Positions 36,413 to 61,213 of a stretch of 64,000 nt of DNA are shown piece by piece. Position 1 is the stretch's first letter. Each line of letters starts with the position of its first letter. The notes below the pieces were generated by a model. The model searched no databases. It was not told the origin of the DNA and saw nothing but the letters and a program-made list of their open reading frames with translations. Position numbers and translations under genes: made by a program. Origin of the DNA: Obelidium mucronatum (lineage: Eukaryota > Chytridiomycota > Chytridiomycetes > Chytridiales > Chytriomycetaceae); NCBI GenBank assembly GCA_025765595.1, contig JAIVFH010000087.1, positions 1 through 64,000 of the forward strand, written 5' to 3'.

Positions 36413-37134
36413 ATGGCCGAGCAAGGCGTCTGGGGAACACTCAAGGCGCTCAAGGAAAGCGACAAGATCAAAAGCGTCGCGCTGACGTTCGACAAGACGG
36501 GCTACGTGATTGGCCGGCACGTCGAGTGCGACATCCGCGTGGATCTGCCGCAGCTGTCCAAGCGGCACTGCGTGATCTTCCAGGTATTGTTCGGCTCTGG
36601 CCTTGCGGACCCCAACCCGGGCTAACCCGGGCAGCGCAGGAGGTGTCTGTCTCGGACGGCGTCAGCACAGCCTCGGTGTTTGTCGAAGACCTTTCAACCA
36701 ACGGGACCTTCGTCAACTTCAAGCGCATCGGAAAGGGAAAACGCCACAAGCTCAGCGAGGGCGACTTGATTCAGCTGGTTCATTCGGAGAAGGAAAAGGA
36801 AAAGTGTGCGTAGTAGTTTTGCTTTGCTTTGGGGAGAGTGTTTGGGCTTGGCTTAACCACCAGAGTTGTTTCCACTTGCACACAGTCTGGATCTTCCGTC
36901 TGCCAACTACGCTGGAGACAAATTCGTTCGATGAAGCATTTGAACTCGACCAGCAGCTGGGCTCGGGCAACTTTGCTGTAGTCAAGCTGGGCAGGCACAG
37001 ATCAACATCCCATCTCCATGCTGTAAAAATCCTGGACAAGAAGATCTTTGCTGGAAACGCAAAAGTAATGCAGAATATCGAGCAAGAAATCAGCATCCTG
37101 ATGGGTCTGAACCACGTACGACACCCCTTCTCTT

Positions 37135-37180
<46 letters not shown>

Positions 37181-38439
37181 GTTACTCATTGATTTCCATC
37201 CACAGCCATGCATCATCAAAATCCATCAAGTCTACAATCTCCCAAAAACAATCAATATTGTCATGGAATACGCCAAAGGCGGTGAACTTTTCGACCGAAT
37301 CATTGACCAAACAAAGTTCAGCGAACACCAATCCCGCATTCTCATGACCCAGCTGTTCCGCGCCCTCGAGTACTTGCACGATCGTGGAATCGTGCACCGA
37401 GACTTGAAACCCGAAAACATTCTGCTCGTTTCAAAAAGTCCGGAAGACTTGAGAATCAAGATTTCTGATTTTGGGCTTGCGAAATTGATTCCGGAACAGA
37501 ATTTCTTGAAGACGCTTTGTGGAACTCCCAACTATGTGGCGCCGGAAGTCTTGAAGGGCGGGAAAGATACGAGAGCGTATGGTAGCGCCGTTGACTTGTG
37601 GAGTTGTGGAGTGATATTGTACATTTGTTTGGTTGGGCAGCCACCGTTTTCGGACGAATTAGCACCTCCAAGCATGCTGGATCAGATCAAGCAAGGAAAA
37701 TTCAACTTCCCATCTCCTTGGTGGGATGATATTTCACCAGAAGGTAAACAACCCTATTTAAAAAAAAAGTTTTTTGGAAGAATTTTGATTTTTAATAACA
37801 CCAAAAAAAAAAAAAAAAAACAAACACTTGTCCCTTCTAGCTATCGATTTGATCAAGAAACTCATCATCGTGGACCCCACATCTCGACTCACCGCAGCGC
37901 AAGCCCTTCAACACCCGTGGATGAAAATGGCATCTGCAGCCGCCGACGCCGACTCGTTAGCCAGCATCAACGACCCCGCAATCTCTCAACTGCCATCCCC
38001 TGAGAAATTTCCAAAAAATGATACCGTGTATGGCGCTGCTGCCGCGTCATTTATTTCTGGCCAGGAACTGTCTGATAAATTAAGCGACTACCAAAAAAGC
38101 AGCAACAGCAGTATTCCTGCCAACAACAATACTGGTAGCAGCAACGGAAGCGGCGCCGAGAATGCGTCTGCGTCAACACCGACTACACCCAACAGATCAA
38201 CTCGTGCAAGCACCAGAAGACAGACTGCGAGTGTTCATACTTCCGCTACTACAACCCCTGTCAGGGGCGTGACCACGGCTGAAAAAACGAGTCAAGATTC
38301 GACACCTGTTCTTGGGAAACGAAAAGTTCGTGCTCAAGATGCAAAGAAGGAAGTTGCTGCTGATGCCGCCGCGTCAGACTTTAGCGACACTGACGATGAA
38401 AGTGATGCCAGAAAGAAAAACAAGACATCAAATTACTAA
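36413..38439 (+). CDS. FHA-domain checkpoint kinase (Rad53/Chk2/Cds1 type)
   Basis: A DNA-damage/replication checkpoint Ser/Thr kinase. Five exons join in phase: 36413-36583, 36640-36805, 36886-37115, 37206-37743 and 37841-38439. The FHA domain spans exons 1-2 (YVIGRHVECDIRVDLPQLSKRHC, then DLSTNGTFVNFKRIGKG). The kinase has the glycine loop LGSGNFAVVKLGRH, catalytic Lys in HAVKILDKK, HRDLKPEN, DFGLAK, GTPNYVAPEVL and the substrate helix EHQSRILMTQLFRAL. The tail is Ser/Thr-rich and disordered with a basic end. The third intron contains about 41 T in a row. The start codon lies only 11 bp after the stop of the GT71 gene on the same strand, so the 5' UTR must be tiny or overlap that gene. Confidence 0.92.
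37138..37180. repeat. Poly(T) tract in an intron
   Basis: About 41 consecutive T on the coding strand of the kinase gene, between the donor after GLNH and the acceptor before the PCIIKIHQVY exon. It may act as an extended polypyrimidine tract. Confidence 0.95.
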
Positions 38440-38574: not shown

Positions 38575-41322
38575 TCAGCGAATCAGTTTGGGTTTCTTTT
38601 TGTTGCTGGCTTCGATGGCGGCAGCGGCAGCAGCAACGGCCACTTGTCTTCTCGTAGAAACAATCGCTTGATGCCCGACAATTGACTTGGGGTCATCAGT
38701 TTCACTCCCAGAATCAAGTTTCATTTGTCTCTTCAATTGAACTCGCGTTTTTGGTCCATTCAGAACCTTTGAGTTACCACCACCACCACCTCCTCCTCCT
38801 CCTCCACGACCACCTCTACTAGTACCTCCAGCAGCACCGCGCCGTCGATTCGCGGCGGCCGCCCTCTTTTCCTTCTGGGATTTCAAATCCATTTCTCGCT
38901 TCACCAACATTCTTGCCAAAGATTGAGCTCTCTCATCTCCTTCCATTTCCACATCTCTATCGCCAACAACATCTTCGTCGTCATCGTCAATAATAATCAC
39001 AGAAGAAATTGACGGATTGCGCTCATTGTGTGGGGCTTCTTTAATTTCTTCACCACTTGCAACGATACCCCCCCTCATTGATATTGTTGTTGTTGTTGCT
39101 GTTGAACCAAACTTGTCTTTTCCAGGATTCTTGACGATGCATGAGGAGCTTTTCGGGACTTGCGAGAGCGGTTTTGTGAAAAAGGAAGAAAAATCATCAT
39201 CTTCACAGTCGTTCTCCGTTGCAGTAGTAGCAGTAGTAGTAATAACAGTAGTAGCAGTGGTTGCAGTAGTAATAGAAGTTGTTGTCTTGCCATTGGAATC
39301 GCTTGAAGGAATATTGCTTGTCGTGGGAATCGCAGGACGCGTATTGTCGTTGGATTTAGTTGAAACTGTCTTGGGTGGTCTGGCATTGCTATAGGTGAGA
39401 ACGAAAGGAATGTTATTTTCTCCTCTGTAGAGTAAAGAAGTAGAGGAAGGGAAAAAAAACAATTCACCCCTTTGGCAGTAGATAGAAGAAGAAGAAGGAA
39501 AAAACGATACACCGCCTTCGGCGGTAGATAGAAGAAGTGGAAGGAAAAAAAACAATTCACTGCCTTCGGCGGTAGATAGAAGAAGTGGAAGGAAAAAACA
39601 ACAATTCACCGCCTTTGGCGGTAGATAGAAGAAGAAGAAGGAAAAAACGATACACCGCCTTCGGCGGTAGATAGAAGCAGAAGAAGGAAAAAACGATACA
39701 CCGCCTTCGGCGGTACATAGACGAAGAAGAAGGAAAAAACGATACACCGCCTTCGGCGATAGATAGAAGAAGAGGAAGGGAAAAAAAAAGAATTCACCGC
39801 CTTTGGCGGTAGATATAAGAAGAAGAAGGAAAAAACTAACACAGATAGAAGAAGAAGAAAGAAAAAACTAACACCGCCTTTGGCGGTAGATAGAAGAAGT
39901 GGAAGGAAAAAAAAAAGAATTCATCGCCTTTGGCGGTAGATAGAAGAAGCGGAAGGAAAAAAAAGAATTCACCGCTTTTGGCGGTAGATAGAAGAAGAAG
40001 AAAGAAAAAACTAACACAGATAGAAGAAGAAGAAAGAAAAAACTAACACCGCCTTTGGCGGTAGATAGAAGAAGTGGAAGGAAAAAAAAAGAATTCATCG
40101 CCTTTGGCGGTAGATAGAAGAAGCGGAAGGAAAAAAAAGAATTCACCGCTTTTGGCGGTAGATAGAAGAAGAAGAAGGAAAAAACGAAACACCGCCTTCG
40201 GCGGTAGATAGAAGAAGTGGAAGGAAAAAAAAAGAATTCACCGCCTTTGGCGGTAGATAGAAGAAGAAGAAGGAAAAAACGATACACCGCCTTCGGCGGT
40301 AAAAGCAGAAGAAAAAGAAAATAGGAATACACCGCCTTCGGCGGTAAAAGCAGAAGAAAAAGAAAATAGGAATACACCGCCTTCGGCGGTAAAAGCAGAA
40401 GAAAAAGAAAATAGGAATACACCGCCTTCGGCGGTAAAAGCAAAAGAAAAAGAAAATAGGAATACACCGCCTTCGGCGTCCGCCTTCGGCGGTAAGGTGA
40501 CCATCAATCATACCTCACTTCATTTGAAAAAGAAACAACTTGGACGCCACTTGAAAGCGTCAATGGAGAAGGAGGAAAGTTTAATTGTTGATGATGATGA
40601 AGGCTGAGTTGGGATTCCGCGTCAAGCTGGAGTGGAATTAAATCAGGTGGCTCAACAACGCGGGAAAAAGCTTCGAGATGATCCCGCGTTTCAGTCTGAG
40701 ATGCAACAGAGACTTGAGAAATCTGTTTATATTGAGTGGAAAACTGCAAGAAATCGTGGTGCAGAGTCTCCTGATTCTTTTTGACTTCCACAAGAGTGGA
40801 TTCAAGATTCTGCATTCAAAAAAAGCATTATTTAGTTACCTGTTTACTAAGTTAAGGAGAGATGGAACTTACATTTTTCAGCGTTCCGATCGAGTGCAGT
40901 TGAGAAGTTGTTTTGACCAGTTCTTGGACCACACCAACGAGCTTCGCTGACGCCAGCTCCTGCTGGGTTTGGACTGAGTTGAAAACGCGTAAGGCAAAGA
41001 AAGATGCAAAGAAGAAGGAGAAGAAAGAGAAGTAAGTACACTTGTCCAGGGCGCGACACACTGCGGCCAGCAGCGCCCCCGACTCCGACTCCGACGCGGC
41101 TGAAGCTGAGGCTGAGGCCGAGACTGAATGCGGCGCCATCGGAGAAACAACGCGCTTTGGCGCTGGGTCCGCCTTCGCTTTGGGCGACAGCGCGGCCAGC
41201 GGCGGCTTCGCCACGTAGCGCGCGAACGCGTTCGCATTGACGCTCGCGTTCGCGGCAGCGGCGGCGCGCGGCGCAAACGCAAACTCGGGCGACGGCGAGC
41301 GCGTCGCTGACTCGTCGGTCAT
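38575..41322 (-). CDS. Coiled-coil, low-complexity protein of unknown function
   Basis: I do not recognise a family. Four exons are supported by splice sites: 41322 to about 41042 (Ala/Ser-rich, MTDESATRSPSPEF), 40973-40873 (VQTQQELASAKLVGVVQEL), 40809-40514 (NLESTLVEVKKNQETL, coiled coil) and 39388-38575. The first junction (donor near 41035) is the least certain. The last exon is Thr-rich, then acidic (IIIDDDDED), then Gly-rich (RGGRGGGG), ending in basic KKKPKLIR, a plausible nuclear signal. The third intron (40513-39389) is 1125 nt long and consists almost wholly of the minisatellite listed separately. All other introns in the gene are short. Confidence 0.6.
39455..40495. repeat. Palindromic minisatellite filling an intron
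   Basis: About 21 tandem copies of a unit of roughly 45-50 bp, each with the core ACCGCCTTYGGCGGT, a perfect 6-bp inverted repeat around a 3-base loop, separated by purine-rich filler such as agatagaagaagaagg. Some neighbouring cores are one and a half units apart. Two subfamilies exist: 39464 to about 40285 with filler tagatagaagaag, and about 40285-40470 with filler taaaagcagaagaaaaag. At 40464-40492 two cores are fused back to back. On the coding strand the filler is a pyrimidine tract and the cores can fold as ACCGCC-GAA-GGCGGT hairpins. Confidence 0.95.
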
Positions 41323-46077: not shown

Positions 46078-49000
46078 TCAAGCCGCACAAACCGCACCAT
46101 TTGCAACCAACGCTTCTATCATGTCACTTGCTCCATTGATGACCCCAAGAGTAGCCGTTTTCGCAACATCCAATGGTGTTCGTCCAAGATTGTCAACGGC
46201 GTTGACATCAGCACCCCTCTCAATAAACTTTTGAATCAGTGACGTCAGATTAAGTTTCACCTCATCCTTTTTATCATCGTCTTCCTCCTGCAATTTCGCC
46301 TCATTGGTAATAACGTCTTCCTCTGCTGCCTTTTCACAATCTCCCTCTTTTAATTCAACCTCGGTAACAACTTCTTCCTCAACCACTGCTTCGCAATCTG
46401 TCACCACCGTGTCATCATCTTCTGCCTTGATTGCCGGCTCGATTGACGCATCTTTGCTCTCGATAGAGGCTTGATTATCAGTCGAGACGTCTGCGGTCGT
46501 TTCCTCCACTGACTTGGCAGTTGACGCTTCTTTAATATCAACGCTGGCTGAATTATCAGTCGAAATTTCCACGGCGTCTTGAACTTCCTCCTCCTCAATC
46601 TCTTGAACTTCCTCCTCTGTTGTTAAATGCGACCTTAAACCAGATTTTGCTAGAATGTGTAGAGGTGTAGAACCATCACAATCCTTGATTGTAACATCGA
46701 CCTGATCAAGTGACAGTAAATACTTGATACCCTCAGTAGCGGTAAACAGGCAGGCAGAGTGAAGTGCTGTAAATCCAGCGCGCTCTGGCAACAGCGCAAA
46801 CGAGAGAACGGAATTGGGGTTGGCGCCAGCATCCAAGAGGAGCGGCCAAATCTTAGAGCTTTCAGGAAGTGTACACGCCATAGAGAAAACTTCTTCATTG
46901 AACTTTTGGCGACCAATCAGATTGGTTTTGTCCAGGTTCAGCAAAAACGCTGTCATTTCTTCTGCATCCTCAGATGATTGGATGGAAAAGAAAAAGGCGT
47001 TGGCGCCTCGATATTCAACCTTGGAATCAAACTGCACCCCAATATGGTTTAGAAGTTTAACGAGACCAAACTTGGACTTGTCGGCAGCGATGGCATATCC
47101 CATCGACAGTGCCTTGGACACTCGAGGAAATGAGCTCGTTTTTGCTTGGTTCTGGGCGACCGACAAGATTGAATAGATGAGCTTGTTTTCTTGATACCCC
47201 TCGTCCACATCAACATCACCAACCAACTTTCGATAAGTTTCGTTTTTGGCGAGCACCTGTTGAATCACCGTGTCTTCTTGTGCGTAAGAAACGTAACAGA
47301 GAAGAGCAAGATATGAATCAGCATTTGAAAAGAATTCCAATTCCGTCGGCCATTTGGAGAGGACATAGTCAAACACATCTTTGTTTCCAAAGCATGCTGC
47401 CAAATCCAACACATTCAATCCCTCGGAAGAAACAGTCGTAGTCAATAGAGAAGGCTCGATTTGCAATAAGAATTTGACAGATTCCAGCTGGCTGTCGGAA
47501 AGTGCGAGACACAACGCGGAATCGCCGCAATCATCTTGAGCGGAAACATCCAATTGCGCCCTTCTATCACCGGATAGCAAGAACTTGAGGCATTCAACTT
47601 GATATGCTGCTTGATGAATGATCGTTCCGTTGATTTGAGTCCTGTATTCAGCAAATTGAATGGGATCCAGTGATACCAAGTACTTGACTACTTCGACGTA
47701 ACCATTGAGAACGCAGTTTGCCAGTGGCACACGTACATCGCCGATTTTACGCAGATCAAAGCTTCCCCGTTCAATCAATAGCTTGTAGACTTTCAATGAG
47801 CCGGTGTGGTTTGATGCCATATCCAGCAAATTATTCTTTCCAATGCTAAAGTTAATGGAAGACGGATCTCGATCCAGCAACAGTTTTACACACTTGTGAG
47901 CCCCATTTACTACAGCAATAGAGAGAGCCGTATCACCACTGATACTGACTTGACGTGAGTCGCAACTTCCATTCTGCAAAATCAGCTCCACAATGTCAGA
48001 ATATTCGTTTGACCACGCCGAATAATGCAATAAAGAATAGTTGTTGCTCTTCACTGTGTGGTTCACGAGTGATTTGTCTTGGGCAATTAAACGCCTGGCG
48101 CATTTGGGGAATCCTAAGGACATGGCCAGTGACAACGCGGTCTGTCCAGCCGAATCGATATTGTTTAAATCAAATTTGTGGGGCGATGCAAGAAGGACTT
48201 CAAGGACTTCGATATTGTCAGCATCGGTGACCTTCATTGCAAAATTAGGAATGAACGAGAAGAACAAATAAAAATCAATACTTACTGCTTTCTGAATAAG
48301 TGTCTTATTATCACACTTGTCAATAAATTCCAGAAGGGTGGCGTCTTTGCGGATTAAATACTTGATTTTCTCCACCTTGCCGGTTTGAACGGCGTTGGAC
48401 AGAACAGTCGAATTGTCCTTAGCGACATGGTGGAGATCAAACTTTCCAGCCTCTACGAGAATTTTCACGATATCAGCACCGTCCGAACCGTCCAATTGAA
48501 GCAAATTTTTTTGTTCTGGTTCGTAAATGAATTCCAACTGAGTTGGGTCCAGGACGATAAGATATTTAAGGGATTGCAGTGCCCCAATCTGAACTGCATA
48601 AGACATCACTGTGTGACCGTCTTCCGATACTTGTTTGAGATCACTCTTTTCCAAATCGTAAATGTACTTCATCATTCGGAAGTTATTGGTACTGTCAAAA
48701 GACAACCGTAGCAGACTAGACTTGGTCGTTCCATTAGGCACAGACAGGGCAGATGGGTCTTTTTTATACAAGATTTTAGCACACTCCAACTGTCCAAATT
48801 TGACGGCAAGCGCGAAAGCGGTGAACCCATCAGAATCCACCTCAGTCAACTCAAAGGCCCCCGCATTCAACAGGGCTGTAAGAATTCCACCTCCATTGGA
48901 GTAGCTAGCAACGGCCAAATGAATCAAAGACTGCTTCTTGGGAGACTTGTAGGTCAACTGTGTCGCATTCAAAGGAATCAAGTATTTGACGCAATCTTCA

Positions 49001-52000
49001 AAGCTATTCGTGATGGCCAGGGATAGAACCGTGTTTCCGTCACTATCCTGCTCATTCAAATCAAACTTGCCAAGCGAAATAAGCTTCTTCAGAAATTCGG
49101 CATTTCCTGAACTTGAACAAACAGCCAAATGAGCTAAATTCTGGTTTGTCGAGGCAACCTTGTGATTCAATTGCTTCGAATCGAGTTTTAGCAAATAGCA
49201 AGCTTCGAAGTAATTTCCGTTTGCAATTGCACTAGCCAGCGCAGTGTATCCGTTTGAGTCTACATGGTTTAAATCAATGTGATTCCATAATTCAACAATA
49301 GGTTTGAATACGTGGGCGCCTTTCCCGATCTAAAAAAAAAAAGCTTATCAGAGAGACCGTTCTCAAATTCTTCAGATGCAAAAAACAACGAACTTACACT
49401 CAAGTGCAACGGTGTTTGGCCCGTACTTTCCAAGATAAATTCAAGCTGCGCCGGGTCCTTCTTGATCAAATACTGAACACATTCATTCATATCATAATCG
49501 TCGCTCACTGACACTCGCGACAATAAAATATGGCCTTCTGAATCTTTGTTCAGAAGATTGAATTTCCCGGCCGTGAGTAACACATCCAGCATCTGGATCT
49601 TGTTCCACCACAACTTCATCGCAAGTTGAATTAATGTCTTATTCTCCGAAATGAGCACAAAATCGATTTGGGAGGGATCCAGAGAAAGTAGATATGGGAC
49701 CGAGTTAAAACGGGAATTCGCAACAGCTCGAGCAAGTGCTGTGTATCCATCCAAGTCAACAGCGTGGATATCTATCTTCACCAAGCTGAGTATGAACTTC
49801 AGCAAAGGTACACTGTCGCCGGCTTCGACTGCAAGGTGAAGGAGAGTCTTATTTTCGGCATTTGCAGTAGCAGTTACTTCGACTCCAAGGTCAATGACGC
49901 GTCGCACTATCTTTATATCTGAGCTGAGAATTGCAGCTCTTAAAAGATCTTCTCCTTCGCTCTTGAAGTCCATCTTGCAACCAGCTTCCAATAATACATC
50001 CAGCATCGCGTCCGATGAATAGAGTTGGACAAAAGAAAGCAACGATTTTTGCTCAGGAGACTTGAATTCAACCAAAGCCGGGTTCAAAGCCAGCAAATGC
50101 TTTGCGCACTGAACCATATTGGTTTGGACAGCACGAGATAAAGCCGTGTCTCCTTCAGAATCAACTTGAAAGAGGTCGAACTGACCAGCTTGGAGTAATT
50201 CCTTCACTAAATCAATCGGATCCGACCAGGCTTGTAGCTTGTGAATCAAAGTTCCTTCATCTTCATTTCTGAATTCAAACTGCTTCTTGTCCAGCCCAAT
50301 TAAATACTTTGCACACATTACTCGACCAGTATTAAGAACCGAAGACAAGGGCGTGTTCCCAGCGAGGTCCTTCTGGCTGAGATCGATCGCGCAATTTTCA
50401 ATAACAAGTTTAAGGCACTTCAAATTGTCTCCGTATTGAACTGCAATATGAGCAGCGTTCATGCCGTCACTATTGATAAATGTTCCAACGAGTGGATCTT
50501 TGGAAAGAAGATATTGAGCACATCTGAAGTACCCATTTTCAAGCGCCTTGAAAAACGGAGTCACTCCAGCAGTGGGGGTGCGAATGTCAAAGTTGTGGTT
50601 GGATAAAACAGCCTTGAGAACACCGATATTGTCACCACTTGCGACGACATCATAGATCAAGCCGGAATGAGCGTCCAGCGTAAGTTGGCCAGCATCAACT
50701 TCAATCAGATACTTTGCAATTTTGGTGTGGTTGGCTTGGATTGCTGCAGCCAATGGTGTAACACCCGAATCATTCACTGCGCGCAGGTCCGACTTGCAAG
50801 AGTTCAATACCAGTTTGCAGACATCGAGACTACCTGACGTGCACGCCAAATGGAGAAGGGTGTTTCCCACAGTATCAGGTCCGACGTACACTTGAGCTGG
50901 ATCTGTGTCATACAAGAACTTGGCACACGCCCAGTTTCCATTCATTACTGCGATTGAAAATGGGGTCCAGCCGGATTGGTCGACCTCTTGCAAGTCAAAT
51001 TTGCCTTTGCGAACAAGAGCCCGAATCACTGCAACATTATCAATTGTCGCAGCCAAATGAAGAATATTCCGTCCAGTGGCGGCGATTTTGAACGATAATT
51101 GAGATTCATCTGCAGCAATGAGAATCGGTACACACGATGCTTTTCCTGTAGCTGCAGCATATGACAAAGCAGTGAACCCTTCATCGTCAACAACCCCCAA
51201 GTCCACTTTCGTCGACGACAAAATAAACGAAACCAAATCATTGCGGTCTCCACCTTCAAGAACAATTCGAAGTAGCGTTTTTCCAGTATAGCCAACCGCA
51301 TTCATCAAGTTGGGGTTCCTCTCGTGTAGCACTTTAACAATATCCAAGACCCCTGAACTTGCAGCAGCCAACATGGCCGTAAGCCCTTCGAAAGAAGCAT
51401 CTTCCAAATTATACTTCAACTTTGAGTGGTTGAGAAGGAAGTTGACTGTTTCAGTTTGCCCGCTTCGGCAAGCCCTGATCAAGAGATTCTCGTCAATATT
51501 GCTGGTGGCAGCCAAAAGACTCGCATCGATTTCAATCAATGCTTCCAGCACTTCAACTTTCCCACTTCCTGCTGCATGAAGCGCGACAGTCATGCCCTCG
51601 CTGTCCTTATCATTCAAACTGAATTGAAATAGGGAATGTCGGGTGAGGAAATACTTGACGCAACTCCATGACCCCAAAGCTGCGGCCCTTAGAACAATAT
51701 TCATACGATGAGCGATCAAGTTGATCAGGCGTTCTTCTTTGTACAGCAAAAAGGCGATCATGTCAGTATTGTCCCACATTGTCCCGAAAGACAACACCGA
51801 CTCTCCAGACGGAAGTTGATCAAGCAAACTAATGTTGCAGTCTGGGCGACTGACAAGATACTTGAGGCAATCAAACTTGTTTGCAGCAGCGGCAAAGTGC
51901 AACACGTTGGTGCCGTCGACTGCAGTGTTATTCATCAGACCCGGAGCTCGTTCCAAAACAAGTTGAATAGCTTCGATTTGACCAGAGGTAATCGCTCCCG

Positions 52001-53537
52001 TTAGAGCAGTGCCGCCATATATAGTGGTCTCTTGCAAGTTGCAGCTGTCCTTGTGTTCAGTCAAGATATACTTCAAGATATCAACATGTTCGTTTGATGC
52101 CGCCAATTGTGTAAGTGTGCCAAACATACTTGTGGCTGATTTCAATAACGCAGGCTCCCGTTGAATCACCATCTTGCAGAGCTCCAGCTCATTCGTTTGC
52201 ACCAAGTAACTCAGACACGAGTTTCTGAAAACATCAACTTCTTTCAAATCAAAAGCTTGCTTCCAGTCTTCCAGGAAATACCGCACAATATCCGTTTTAG
52301 TAGTCGCCAGAAGTAGCAAATTAGAACCACTCTTTTTGTATTTCACGAGATCTGGGTTCAAAGTGGCGAGATATTTGACAACTTCGAGATGGCCTTCAGT
52401 AACGGCGGCTGTCATTGTATTATTCTCTTCACTGTCTGTCTCGAACAGGTCGTATTTTACTGGCGCCTTGTCTCCAGTAAGGAATTTCAAGACATCCACA
52501 TGGCCATGAAAAGCAGCAATGATTGCAAAGTTCTTTTCTCCAAACATGTCTGCACTATTTTCCATAGCAGCCAAGGCAGCTACAACATCCAACTTGCCGC
52601 CAAACACGGCCGTTCCCAAAACAGTATGGCCTTGATTATCCACAAAGTCAATCGGCGTCTTGGCTTCCAAAAGAAGCTTGAAGATTTCAAACTCGTCCGC
52701 AGCGTTTTCGTTACATGCCACAATAATGTTCATGGCGTTTCCTTCAGAGTGGTCGTCAATAGCGAACTGACTTGCGCCGTGTTTCAGAAGCATTCGTACG
52801 GCTTCAAGTTTAGAGGCAGAAACAGCCGATAGAAGAGGTGTATAACCGAAAAGGTTGACTTCTTCGGTTTTAGCATCGTGATGAAGCAGAACCTCCAACA
52901 TTCCAACCGATCCCAGAGCTAAAAAAAAAAAGAGGATCCCGTTTTTTAGAATCTTTATTTTGAAAGCAGAGTGTCAACTTACAAGCTGCAATATGAAGCG
53001 CAGTAGATTGGTTGGAGTCAACGGCGTTAACATCAACCCTGTGTTCCAGCAACAGTTCGAGAATTTCTTTAGAGTCGCGCCTGACTGCGGATATAACGGC
53101 TGTACCAGAAGTCTTAACACCGTGAGATAAGAGCGCTTTAACGGCTTCAGCGCCAAGGTTTTGGACAGCAATATCTAAAAGGTCATCAGATGTGTCCACA
53201 AAATTCTTGAGAGCGTCTTGGGACATGTTCTTGAGCATATCAATGACGACTTTGTCATCTTTGGCGCGAGTGGCCTCTTGAACAGACTTGTATCCTTCAG
53301 TAGACTTTTGGACGGTTGAAGCAAACAACTCTTTCTGTAACAATACCGAAAGGAGCATATATAAGATTTTTGAGAGTACATGACAATCGTGATGAGCATA
53401 CCGCTGACTTTCCAAGGACTTCGGTAACTCTTTGGATGTTCGTCTTCAATTCGCTTGGGTTGGTTGTATCAACATACAAAATTCCATTAATATTGAATCC
53501 AAGCCACTGCTTCGTCCATGGCTTAGAAGGACTGTGA

Positions 53538-53603
<66 letters not shown>

Positions 53604-54835
53604 ATAAGGTTTAATGTTATGGATGGGATTTCTGGTTTTGGGTCTCACGTTTTCGCAGCAGCAGCGTCCTTGGAGCCTGGCCCAGCTTCCTTGGCCTTCC
53701 TTTGCGCAGCAGCTTGGGGCGACTCACCAACGACAAGGGGGAGAATTTTGAGATCAAGCTGTTTGTTGAAATGGGATAAATTTTATGACGGTACAGGTCT
53801 CCCAAAAAAAGAGAGAGCTTACTGATGCAGCGAATTCAAACTCTTTTTTACAGTTTGCACTTGCTGCGTATTCTTCAGACGCGTGGACAATAACGAGGGA
53901 CACTGTATGTTGACTCGTGAGTACAAATTGACACTGAAGGCCAGCAGAATATCTTTTTTACCGTCATCACTGAGGACGTCTGCCAGCGAAGCCAGCAGCC
54001 CGTTCCCTACCTTGAGCTGTTCAACATCCAGCCAGGGATCCAAGCCAAGCTGCTTGATGATGTCGTAGGTGTGCACACGCGGGTCCCAGGCGCCCGCCTT
54101 TTCGACGTCCGCCTTTGTCGCCTTGCCCGCCTGCAGATCGAGCTCCTTCTGGGTGCGCGAGTTTCGCCAGCAGTACGAAATAAAGACTTTCTTTGGCTTT
54201 GCGGCGCTGGCAGCGGGCGGCGGCCGCACGTCCTTGGCAACTTCCTTGGCAACTTCCTTGGCAACGCGGCCGTCCTTGGCCGCGGCCGCGTCCGGATCGG
54301 CGGCAGCGGGCGCGGGCTCGTCTGGCGGCGCCGCGGCAATCAGACTGCGGCGCGCCGCCGGGGCTTGCGGCGCGCCACCCAGCGCCAAGGCGCCAAGCCC
54401 GTCGCTGCCCAAGCCCGCGCGCGGCGCCAGCCGCATGTCCAGCAGCGCCTGGTCCACGTGCTTCTGCCACTCGAACTCAGTGCGGCGGAACGCGAGCTCC
54501 TGGCGCCGCAGCTCCATTTCCTGCCCAAACTTGTCCTTCTCGAACGCCAGCGACTGCTCAAACTTTTGCCGGTCGAGTTCGAGCTGCATCTTCTGGAGTG
54601 CCATCTACGTGTGTGTGTGTGTATGTGTGTGTGTGTGTGTGTATGTGTGTGTATGTGGTAAGTAGTGGCAGGCAAATTGATCTCCAAATCGACCCCTTAC
54701 ATATTCTTTAATCATGGTAGCGGTTTCCTCATCCCCATCGCGATCAGCGCTTGAGAGTGCATTCTGGAGTGTGGCAAGCTCACTGGATGTAGGCAGGGAC
54801 CTGCGATCAAGCGCCTTTGAAAGGGCGCTAAACAT
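46078..54835 (-). CDS. Giant coiled-coil / TIR / ankyrin-repeat protein
   Basis: Nine exons join in phase: 54835-54701, 54604-53962, 53902-53823, 53758-53649, 53531-53402, 53334-52983, 52918-49398, 49329-48286 and 48231-46078. Order: MFSALSKALDRR, a coiled coil (LELDRQKFEQSLAFEKDK), an Ala/Pro linker, a TIR domain, a helical linker, then about 2400 residues of ankyrin repeats (roughly 65-70 by length). TIR evidence: box 1 KVFISYCWRNS, box 2 region GLDPWLDVEQLKVGNG, VSLVIVHASEEY, SANCKKEFEFA with the Glu that serves as the NADase residue in active TIRs, and LKILPLVVG. An acidic insert (46260-46620) precedes the last repeat. TIR domains sense or signal in immunity and cell death; the fungal role is unknown. 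The 54-nt intron 48285-48232 keeps frame and could be mistaken for coding sequence. Confidence 0.88.
53541..53602. repeat. Long poly(A/T) tract in an intron
   Basis: About 60 consecutive A on the plus strand inside the intron (53648-53532) between the TIR and linker exons. On the coding strand it is poly(T). This is the longest homopolymer in the window. Confidence 0.95.
54605..54660. repeat. (GT)n microsatellite in an intron
   Basis: An imperfect GT/AT dinucleotide run of about 50 bp within the first intron of the TIR-ankyrin gene, lying directly against the 3' splice site of the coding strand. Confidence 0.95.
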
Positions 54836-58022: not shown

Positions 58023-60006
58023 TCACATGGATTCTCCCATCTCTTCATACATGCTGATATAAGCCTCTCCCAACCGTTTCTCTTCCACACTCAACTCCAT
58101 CACCTCCTTTTCCGGATACATGGGCGTCAAACAAAAGGGTACTCCCGGTTGCTCATTCTCCCACTTTTCCGTATCCCGCTCCCCATCATACGCCGCATAC
58201 TCGAATCTCATAAACACGGAATCGCTTTCCCGTCGAATCAACAAGACGCCACCATTCCACCAGAACGGTTTCATGTCTTGATCTACATGGAAATTGCTTC
58301 CACAAACTTTTTGCCGTTGTTTGTGTTGCTTCTCTTGGTCCTCTTTGTCGCTGGCACTGGCACTGATATTGACACCACCACCACCATCACCATCACCCGC
58401 TGGAACATCCACCAGATACCCAAGCGCCCCACTAAACCCCGGAACAAACGCAAAAGGCACCCTCAACATCTCCAACGACATCCAAAAAGTCTCCTTATCC
58501 CCCCACACATGAGAATAAGTCTCTGCCTTCACATCCTCAGAATTCATTTTACAAGCCAACAACAACCCGAAAAGAATCCCCGCGCGTCCTTTATCCAACG
58601 CAACCACCCCGGCTTCCTGTTCATGCCATGATAACCCATTGACCCATCTCAAATCTTTGGCGTACCGGGAGTAAGGTTGGGGTGTCACGCTGCGGAACCA
58701 TTTCGAGTATTCGGATTCAGTCCCTCCGGAACCACGGTTCATTGTCCGGTCATGGTAAAAAACCTGTCCGTATTTCTGGAACTGGTGGGATTCATGCAGA
58801 ATCACGTGGCTCGGGTCTTTGAAAAACAAGACATCCGCGTCCATGAATACAGCGCGGCGGAACCGAGACGCAAGGATCGCGAATGGTTTCACGCTCCAAG
58901 AGCCTTTGAAGGCGGTTGTTTCTTGGGCTGGGAAAAAGTCTTGCAGGTTGACGGATGTGATATCTGTATGGGTTCCTGTGAGGTTGGAGAGGAGGGCGAG
59001 GGAGGGGTCGTCGAGGTCTTGTGGGTTTCCTGCGTAGTGGACTTCGATGGGGAGGGTGCAGTTGAGGAGGGTGCGGAGGGTTTTGATTCCGTGGATGGCG
59101 TATTTGATGTGTTTTTTGCCTGTGGTTATGACGATGCCGCTTTCATTGGTTTTCAAGAGTGTTTGGTGGAGGTGGTGGATGGAGGTGAAGGAGGAAGGTA
59201 GCCATGGGAATAGTTGTTTAGTGAGATGGTTGATGGCTTTTTCTAGGTTCTGATGTTGGGTTTCTGAAAGTTTGATGGGCAGTGACGATGATGATGATGA
59301 TGATGATGGGGGTTGACTGCTGCCAGTTTGAATCAAGTAGGCAATGAATAACGCCCGTGAATATCTGCCGAGTTGTTTAAAGTCGTCAGTGTTGGCTTGA
59401 ATATCTTGGACTTGGATCCGCGAAATGTATTCGTACACTCTTTTCCAGGCTGATTCAATTTCGTCAACAAAGCCGTACGGGATTGATTGAGAGCTTGTTT
59501 TTTTTTTTTTTTTTTTTTTTTTTGTTTTTTAAAACGTATTCTTTCAATTAGAGCGCATGGAGAGAAGAATACCTTTGACTGTGTACGAGATTGAATTCAA
59601 TGAGTTTAACTTGTGCGGCATCAATCGAGTTTTCCAACTGCTCAAATGATTCCTGTACGGGATCATTGTCAATTTTGTTTTGATGGCTGCTGTCAACCGG
59701 ATCATCTTTTTCTTCCTCTTCTTCATCTTCTTCTTCTTCTTCAGGCGCCATGATGAGTTCAATAGCAGAAGTTGTAGCTGGAGCTCTTGCTATCCTTATT
59801 TTTTCTCTTAATGTGGATGTTGTCGTTGTCGTTGTTGTTCTATGAAGTGAATCCTTTGACAGGTCAAGGTCGTAAGGTTCCTCAACAGTGTCTACAGAGT
59901 TTCGAACATCCCAAAAAGAGAGGCAAATCAACAACGATAGAATGACCCCAACAGCCACCAAGTAAGTTTTTGTGCTTCGCGGTTTCCCGTTGATGATGAA
60001 CCGCAT
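58023..60006 (-). CDS. Mnn1-type alpha-mannosyltransferase, GT71 (paralogue 2)
   Basis: Exon 1 (60006-59573) encodes a short basic cytosolic tail (MRFIINGKPRSTKTY), the anchor LVAVGVILSLLICLSF and an acidic stem. Exon 2 (59493-58023) joins in phase (HSQ, S, SQSIPYGF) and holds the catalytic domain: NESGIVITTGKKHIKYA, CTLPIEVHYAG, SVKPFAILASRFRRAVFMDAD, MDADVLFF (DxD), HEQEAGVVALDKGR, WGDKETFWMSLEMLR and FHVDQDMKPFWWNGG. It carries a Ser-rich and a Gly/Lys-rich insert absent from paralogue 1. The intron has a run of about 27 T on the plus strand. Role: Golgi O- or N-glycan mannosylation. Confidence 0.88.
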
Positions 60007-60072: not shown

Positions 60073-61213
60073 ATGAGCTTCGTCCAATTGACACCGCTTG
60101 TGGCGCGGTTGACGGTTCCGGCAGCGGGTGAGGAAAGAGACGGATGGACGTGGTGGCGCATTCAGCTAATTCCCGGCAGGACCGTACGCGCGGCACGCCA
60201 GCAACGTGTACCTCGTGGGCGCAAGCGGCACGGACCGCGTGCTCGTCGACACGGGCAACGGCGCCGGCGCAGCGCGTCTCGGCAGCGCACTCGCAGGCGC
60301 TGGCGTGTCGCTGGCGGCGGTGGTGCTGACGCACGCGCACGGCGGACACGCGGGCGGGCTGGCGGCGACGCCCAACACACGGACGCTCACTGCGCGCAGC
60401 GTGCGCGACGGCGCCGCAGTCGGCCCGCTGCTGCGCGCCGTGCACACGCCCGGCCACGCGGCGGACGCGCTGTCGCTGTGGCTGGCGGACGAGCGCGCGC
60501 TGCTTGTTGGCGACGCCGTGTCTTCGACGCCGTTTGAGTCTTCGACGACGCCGCTCCACCCGCGCCACCAGCTGCTCGACGACCTGCCTGCGTACTCGCG
60601 CTCGCTGGCGAACCTGGCCGCCCTGGGCCCGCGCCTCGTCTTTCCCGGCCACGGCGACGTCATCTCCGACGGCCTCGATTACATTTCGCAGGCACAGACC
60701 TGCGTCAAACGAACCTCGTCCGTGATTCTCTCCCTCGTGTCTCATAACCATGCCATCACTGCCCTGGACATTACGCGCTATCTCCTGGACGATAACAAAT
60801 GGGCCATGGCCTTGTCGCTGTCCAATCAGGATTTCAGTATTGCTGGCACATCAAAAACTCCTCAACATTCCGTGGTTCTGGAAGGAACAGTCAAGCTGCA
60901 TTTGCTTGATTTAGAAAAGAAGGGCTTGATTCAACGTGTTTATGCTGCCAAAAACGATACTCAAAATGTTTCAGACGCCCAAAGGAATATGACGGGTCCT
61001 GGAGGATTGACTTTCAATACGATTTTTGATGCTGTTAAAAGCAGCAGGCAAAAGGATTGGGAACAGCACAAAGACTCCTCCAACGATACCAACAACAACA
61101 ACAACAAAAATAATGATGAACAAATCTTTCGTGTGCGAGAACAAGTTCATCCTGCTCATTTACGGCTTGGTCTTTCTCGCGATATTGGATGGACGATTGT
61201 TTCAAAAAAGTAA
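60073..61213 (+). CDS. LACTB2-like metallo-beta-lactamase fold protein
   Basis: Exon 1 is 60073-60127, a 52-nt intron runs 60128-60179 (branch-like CTAAT before CCCGGCAG), and exon 2 is 60180-61213. The join gives VPAAGPYARHASNVYLVG, as expected for LACTB2-type proteins, which act as single-strand endoribonucleases. Visible metal motifs: THAHGGHAGG, HTPGHAADALSL, VGDAVSST and FPGHGDVISDG. The first should read HxHxDH, but Asp is Gly here. The C-terminal winged-helix-like part (LVSHNHAITALDITRYLL, HLLDLEKKGLI) is present, followed by a non-homologous tail. Exon 2 is extremely GC-rich up to about 60700, then drops sharply. Confidence 0.85.

Follow-up and report, generated by a model that had tools for sequence, protein, structure and literature searches.

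A chytrid gene joins a TIR domain to a long ankyrin-repeat array without a nucleotide-binding domain

A single gene of the chytrid Obelidium mucronatum encodes a 2722-aa protein in which an N-terminal TIR domain, with a strictly conserved candidate catalytic glutamate, is followed by several dozen ankyrin repeats. The same fusion occurs in several other chytrid genera. What is new is the kingdom in which it occurs, its size and a layout free of an NLR-type core; the pairing of the two domains as such is already known.

Results

In silico splicing of the minus strand between positions 46078 and 54835 of the window (the whole stretch of 64,000 nucleotides analysed here) yields one open frame, from an ATG at 54835 to a stop ending at 46078, with 9 exons, no internal stops and 8 introns of 54–117 nt, all 8 of the GT..AG type. 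These ends are exactly those given by an earlier sequence-only reading, which had also proposed a single spliced protein. The model is further backed by full-length relatives and by a full-length paralogue on contig C54 of the same genome; spliced likewise, the latter equals the database protein P0001 (Obelidium mucronatum) letter for letter, and the fusion thus has independent support.

From the N to the C terminus, the protein comprises a conserved 15-mer, a charged segment, the TIR domain, the ankyrin repeats, an acidic linker and a terminal repeat. Exon 1 (54701..54835, minus strand, as for all features below; aa 1–45) includes the 15-mer MFSALSKALDRRSLP at 54791-54835. Exon 2 (53962..54604; aa 46–259) holds the charged segment (residues 46–105), a low-complexity linker and the first half of the TIR domain, which continues through exon 3 (53823..53902; aa 260–286), with strand C and the S..Y..S..C..E helix, and exon 4 (53649..53758; aa 287–322), with strand D and a loop, to its end in exon 5 (53402..53531; aa 323–366). 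Exon 6 (52983..53334; aa 367–483) holds a linker and, starting near aa 419 (53178), the beginning of the ankyrin repeats. The array fills exon 7 (49398..52918; aa 484–1657) and exon 8 (48286..49329; aa 1658–2005) and extends in exon 9 (46078..48231; aa 2006–2722 and the stop) to about aa 2540, where the terminal part begins with the acidic linker (46312-46626; about aa 2541–2645, with 34 D+E in residues 2541–2640), followed by a conserved terminal ankyrin repeat. Intron 4 contains a 60-base poly-A run at 53543-53602 (poly-T in gene orientation), and intron 8 could be read through, since it is 54 nt long, a multiple of three, and free of stops.

The N-terminal 15-mer is kept at 15/15 positions in P0001 and in P0002, at 12/15 in P0004 and at 8/15 in P0003 (relatives described below), and the 45-aa first exon, used as a query against the own genome, recovered both paralogues only (2 matches among 2 candidates). 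A coiled coil suggested from the sequence found no support in the charged segment: in a crude test of heptad periodicity, the hydrophobic moment of residues 46–105 at 3.5 residues did not rise above that of shuffles in any of 5 sequences, and in hydrophobic-moment tests of six periods in the five sequences none exceeded shuffles.

The TIR domain covers residues 181–366. Pfam TIR_2 (PF13676, STIR clan) matches residues 228–301, with E=1.6e-5 in the whole protein, where its 25.8 bits fall short of the 28-bit cut-off, and with 32.3 bits, above it, when the domain is scanned alone. A profile search against solved structures likewise matches solved TIRs (best E=4.1e-6), among them entries named as NAD+ hydrolase, ADP-ribosyl cyclase/hydrolase and CRISPR-associated TIR; of the 16 solved sequences matched, we take 15 to be plant or bacterial-type TIR proteins, with a Toll-like receptor last. 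The Pfam and PDB profile matches stop short of box 1. By eye, the motifs that we take to be box 1 (KVFISYCW) and box 2 (PWLDVEQLKVG) are present, as is S..Y..S..C..E with Glu280, and together with the profile matches they bear out the initial description of a TIR domain with both boxes and an SxxC..E helix. The chytrid TIR-ankyrin family carries the signature FISYCWRNS...DPR...WLDV..L.

Glu280 (GAG codon at 53841..53843) is invariant in 10/10 aligned TIRs and in 9/9 of a second, overlapping set, and a profile alignment places it on a Glu of the Roq1, AT1G72930 and Cat1 TIRs that is presumably their catalytic residue. The glutamate originally singled out for NADase activity stands as a candidate, and Glu280 may be the catalytic residue of a TIR of the NAD-cleaving type. 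Such conservation is no proof of NADase activity, because the toxicity in yeast of an amoeba TIR protein was independent of its conserved Glu, according to the available text of PMC13142454.

Structure prediction, which the sequence-only reading had proposed as a check, gave an AlphaFold model of the TIR of moderate confidence (pLDDT 66.7, pTM 0.62). The top 36 Foldseek rows all come from TIR-containing protein entries, with modest TM-scores, and the 4 rows with E<=0.001 are RUN1 and RPPT TIRs. The predicted fold is of the flavodoxin-like alpha/beta kind and appears closest to TIRs, whereas in a VIA re-alignment flavodoxin-like folds scored equal to TIRs and the two were not separated.

Ankyrin family Ank_2 matches the protein with E=4.8e-181 in 26 stretches, and the array spans about residues 419–2540 plus one terminal unit. 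The long array seen initially is therefore real, but its length is some 2150 aa, not the roughly 2400 first proposed. Two family-trained profiles give 48 matching units, 42 of them with a score of >=5; neighbouring matches are spaced by 31–39 aa in 38/47 cases, and the two profile types mostly alternate at about residues 1061–2062. Spacing leaves room for 8 further units in clear gaps and for as many as 5 where the match is weak (residues 2306–2490); with 2 weak ones at 419–466, we estimate the number of repeats at 56–63. Apart from ankyrin families and TIR_2, the Pfam scan of the 2722-aa protein (E<=1) lists three weak matches below cut-off (ANK_LRRK2, DUF3447 and SpoU_sub_bind); it shows neither NACHT nor NB-ARC, in agreement with the supposed absence of a nucleotide-binding domain, and neither ARM nor SAM. 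No tandem repeats at the DNA level were found within the ankyrin exons, in contrast to the NRPS modules of the same window, which are 88–99% identical in DNA.

The window gene and the C54 copy have corresponding exon borders, the latter with one extra intron, and align over 2674 codons with a colinear array, at 58% amino-acid identity (dN 0.33, dS 1.91; NG86). Their TIRs are 90% identical (dN 0.060, dS 1.19), whereas three ankyrin blocks are 54–58% identical (dN 0.33–0.40, dS 1.6–3.4), with identities across ankyrin blocks ranging from 48 to 62%. The dN/dS of the TIR, 0.05–0.07, is rough, as are the other ratios, because dS is near saturation, and since the dS of the TIR lies below that of the ankyrin part, the high TIR identity between the paralogues may be due in part to gene conversion or constraint on codons. 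TIR identities between the window protein and P0001, P0002, P0003 and P0004 are 0.90, 0.69, 0.56 and 0.64, against 0.30–0.62 for five ankyrin blocks. The most conserved 40-aa windows include the TIR, the first repeats after it (441–560, one of the best-kept stretches beyond the TIR) and the C terminus (2661–2720). These substitution patterns show clear purifying selection on the gene, most of all on its TIR, and its array is stable, unlike the variable array of a rapidly evolving sensor. A variable allorecognition array was disfavoured: the ankyrin exons lack repeats in tandem at the DNA level and the paralogues are colinear, both of which lean against the link to allorecognition raised by the sequence-only reading.

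Three protein searches, with candidates of 0.55–1.75 times the query length, returned 4 matches among 7981 scored candidates, 2 among 2448 and 3 among 8000 (in the searches of 7981 and 8000, scoring was limited to the candidates sharing most words). The window copy itself is not among the 9 database proteins returned. Full-length TIR-ankyrin relatives are P0001 (Obelidium, 2707 aa), P0002 (Siphonaria, 2627 aa), P0003 (Physocladia obscura, 2006 aa) and P0004 (Rhizoclosmatium globosum, 2269 aa); P0005 (1502 aa) and P0006 (940 aa, its model without box 1), both from Irineochytrium annulatum (Chytridiaceae), are shorter. The survey that had been suggested for early-diverging fungi thus finds the fusion in four genera at full length and in a fifth in shorter form. 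Three records have a TIR and no ankyrin repeats, namely P0007 from R. hyalinum (partial), P0008 from Siphonaria, and P0009. All 8 named matches are from chytrids (the taxonomy look-up covered all but Siphonaria and Rhizoclosmatium). In a tree of 17 TIRs, R. hyalinum falls into one group (87/94) with the five full-length TIR-ankyrin rows (two from Obelidium and one each from Siphonaria, Physocladia and R. globosum). The Obelidium pair are sisters (100/99), a lineage-specific duplication within the sampled rows; the Irineochytrium rows have no resolved placement, and several branches are long.

Profile searches of the 48.3-Mb O. mucronatum assembly (Chytridiales, Chytriomycetaceae) gave 32 TIR_2 matches at E<=0.01, of which 23 are above the cut-off alone and 1 more with its neighbours, a tally that differs from a gene count because it is taken by exon, misses the TIR of the window itself and includes near-duplicate contigs (C278 resembles C74, and C319 resembles C84). 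One open frame on C74 contains TIR_2 and NACHT/NPHP3_N together, and a NACHT match lies about 0.3–0.5 kb downstream of a TIR on C84 (twice), C74 (twice), C319 and C70; the remaining 4 of the 10 NACHT matches have no adjoining TIR match. NB-ARC gave no matches in this genome at E<=0.001.

Discussion

The most likely reading of this gene, in our view, is a TIR enzyme that is regulated by its ankyrin repeats and acts in stress or immune signalling; we give it about an even chance of being right, because the Glu is strictly kept, the TIR is the most constrained long module, and the ankyrin part diverges faster yet remains colinear, with the TIR-adjoining repeats conserved. The protein would be intracellular and built of two modules: a TIR acting as an NAD-processing enzyme, with Glu280 catalytic and autoinhibition keeping it silent in the resting protein, and a long ankyrin solenoid serving as binding and regulatory scaffold, whose first repeats, next to the TIR, may couple the two modules. 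TIR domains would be drawn together when the protein clusters or binds a ligand or partner, and the assembled TIRs would cleave NAD+, leading to a stress, defence or cell-death response. The other TIR proteins of the genome, including the TIR-NACHT frame, provide supporting context. Counted against this reading were the stability of the array, the unsupported coiled coil that could have driven oligomerisation, the moderate AlphaFold confidence, the modest TM-scores, and the flavodoxin-like folds that scored equal in the VIA re-alignment.

Many animal TIRs are adaptors, and the genome encodes many potential TIR partners; the TIR could accordingly be a non-enzymatic assembly domain and the protein a scaffold that recruits TIR proteins of the cell (TIR-Sel1, TIR-NACHT) through TIR–TIR contacts. 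We consider this unlikely, as the Glu of the S..C..E helix, invariant in all ten aligned TIRs, would be needless for an adaptor, and all but the last of the solved matches are, on our partly assumed assignment of kinds, of the plant or bacterial type. That the TIR and ankyrin parts belong to separate genes joined by eye is highly improbable. The poly-A run in intron 4 and the absence of the window's own protein from the database proteins returned might suggest such an artefact, but the same fusion in P0001–P0004, and in shorter form in P0005–P0006, together with the corresponding exon borders of both paralogues and the identity of P0001 with an independently spliced copy, led us to reject separate genes.

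A housekeeping function has to be weighed as well, in which a giant cytoskeletal, ciliary or developmental ankyrin scaffold and a TIR-made NAD-derived signal would serve zoospore life outside defence. The stable array and architecture, the lack of any sign of repeat turnover in the DNA and the occurrence in several chytrid genera agree with it. We hold it to be possible, if doubtful, given that the TIR modules of other systems chiefly serve immunity and regulated cell death (available text of PMC9153377 and PMC10197012, and established knowledge) and that the Obelidium lineage has duplicated the gene, within the sampled rows, as is common for defence genes, although this is no proof.

Returning to the ankyrin-regulated enzyme, we tentatively suggest that these proteins could form an NLR-free class of TIR enzyme receptors in chytrids, in which about 60 ankyrin repeats would directly control an NAD-cleaving TIR. 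Such a class, with members in two families of Chytridiales and a duplicate kept in Obelidium, may be one arm of a larger chytrid TIR network (TIR-ankyrin, TIR-NACHT, and TIR-Sel1 beside GTPase genes) with a role in immunity or in regulated cell death.

SARM1 is an ARM-SAM-TIR NADase, with ARM repeats and a tandem SAM ahead of its C-terminal TIR; the window protein, by Pfam scan, has neither ARM nor SAM and carries its TIR N-terminal of the repeats. Plant TIR-NB-LRR proteins (RUN1, ROQ1, RPP1) are among its best TIR sequence and fold matches, with the Glu aligned for Roq1, yet NB-ARC and LRR are missing from it in the same scan. Nor does that scan show the NACHT or NB-ARC that in NOD-like receptors stands between the effector and the repeats. 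Fungal NLRs with TIR or HET domains resemble it in combining an effector-type TIR or TIR-like domain with a repeat array (available text of PMC9815663, PMC10197012 and PMC12881547), but its Pfam scan shows neither NACHT nor NB-ARC, and it has a genuine TIR, not HET. Whereas the repeats of the fungal HNWD receptors are described as internally conserved and evolving in concert (PMC12881547, available text), its own array is degenerate and colinear. Closest in layout are the oomycete ankyrin repeat-TIR proteins, called uncharacterised in the accessible part of PMC9153377, and choanoflagellate TIR+Ank proteins (PMC6040629, likewise), which also join a TIR to ankyrin repeats. They belong to other kingdoms and are compared here by description only; neither group appears by name in the 9 proteins that the three length-limited searches returned, and the chytrid family is set apart by its own TIR signature and by full-length members of 2000–2700 aa.

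Among the literature matches listed, no description of a fungal TIR-ankyrin protein was found in the available text. In the parts of these sources at hand, the fungi surveyed in 2010 were without TIR (PF01582; PMC2939053), NLRs were not found in chytrids in 2014 (PMC4986451), and TIR is reported in NLRs of Chytridiomycota (PMC9815663). A 2026 preprint with an atlas of EukProt TIRs (PMC13142454) gives, in its available text, no fungal TIRs in the InterPro clan, a very small number reported earlier and Rhizoclosmatium globosum as the sole fungal species with TIR; P0004 is recorded in EukProt and so may be in the atlas table. The scarcity of TIRs in fungi assumed by the sequence-only reading thus holds for described fungi, from which genuine TIRs are almost missing (PMC13142454, PMC2939053, as far as available), and fails for this genome with its 23 TIR_2 matches above cut-off.

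The chytrid family, in a genome with many further TIR matches, offers a concrete system for two questions: do TIR NADases serve early-diverging fungi in defence or cell death, and how can regulation of a TIR work without a nucleotide-binding switch? It could also shed light on where fungal HET domains come from, which are proposed as distant TIR relatives in the available text of PMC4986451; HET gave 9 matches in the O. mucronatum genome.

A conserved N terminus in the TIR-ankyrin protein

The TIR-ankyrin protein begins with a 15-mer, MFSALSKALDRRSLP (window 54791-54835, minus strand), of which 15/15 residues are kept in two relatives, the Obelidium paralogue P0001, encoded on contig C54, and the Siphonaria protein P0002, and which is followed by a variable linker. 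By eye, the 15-mer forms an amphipathic start with Arg, and it is possibly a targeting or assembly motif. When the 45-aa exon was used as a query against its own genome, the matches were confined to the two paralogues.

TIR domains elsewhere in the genome

On contigs C74, C84, C70, and C319 of the same genome (loci L031-L033, L036, and L037), NACHT matches lie 0.3-0.5 kb from TIR matches. On C74, a single 656-aa open frame holds both TIR_2 and NACHT/NPHP3_N, and this frame represents a TIR-type NLR in a chytrid.

A further cluster, on contig C36 (113435-126937; loci L024 and L025), comprises 4 TIR frames interleaved with 3 P-loop GTPase frames, all on the same strand. The domain scan returned a Sel1 repeat, scoring below its cut-off, in two scanned TIR frames and MMR_HSR1 in two GTPase frames, one of which also has a weak AIG1 match.

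Other features of the window

Frames for a protein kinase (36576-38000, plus strand), a putative mannosyltransferase (58026-59528, minus strand), and a metallo-beta-lactamase fold protein (60170-61210, plus strand) have no evident connection to the TIR gene. A tandem repeat at 39436-40478, with a period of ~45-46 bp and higher-order units, is rich in purines and contains the inverted repeat CCGCCTTCGGCGG. Positions 199-22802 (minus strand) encode a multi-module NRPS; both frames scanned contain condensation and AMP-binding domains, with PP-binding in one, and the modules recur every ~3.4 kb at 88-99% DNA identity (the 14 longest among the matches listed).
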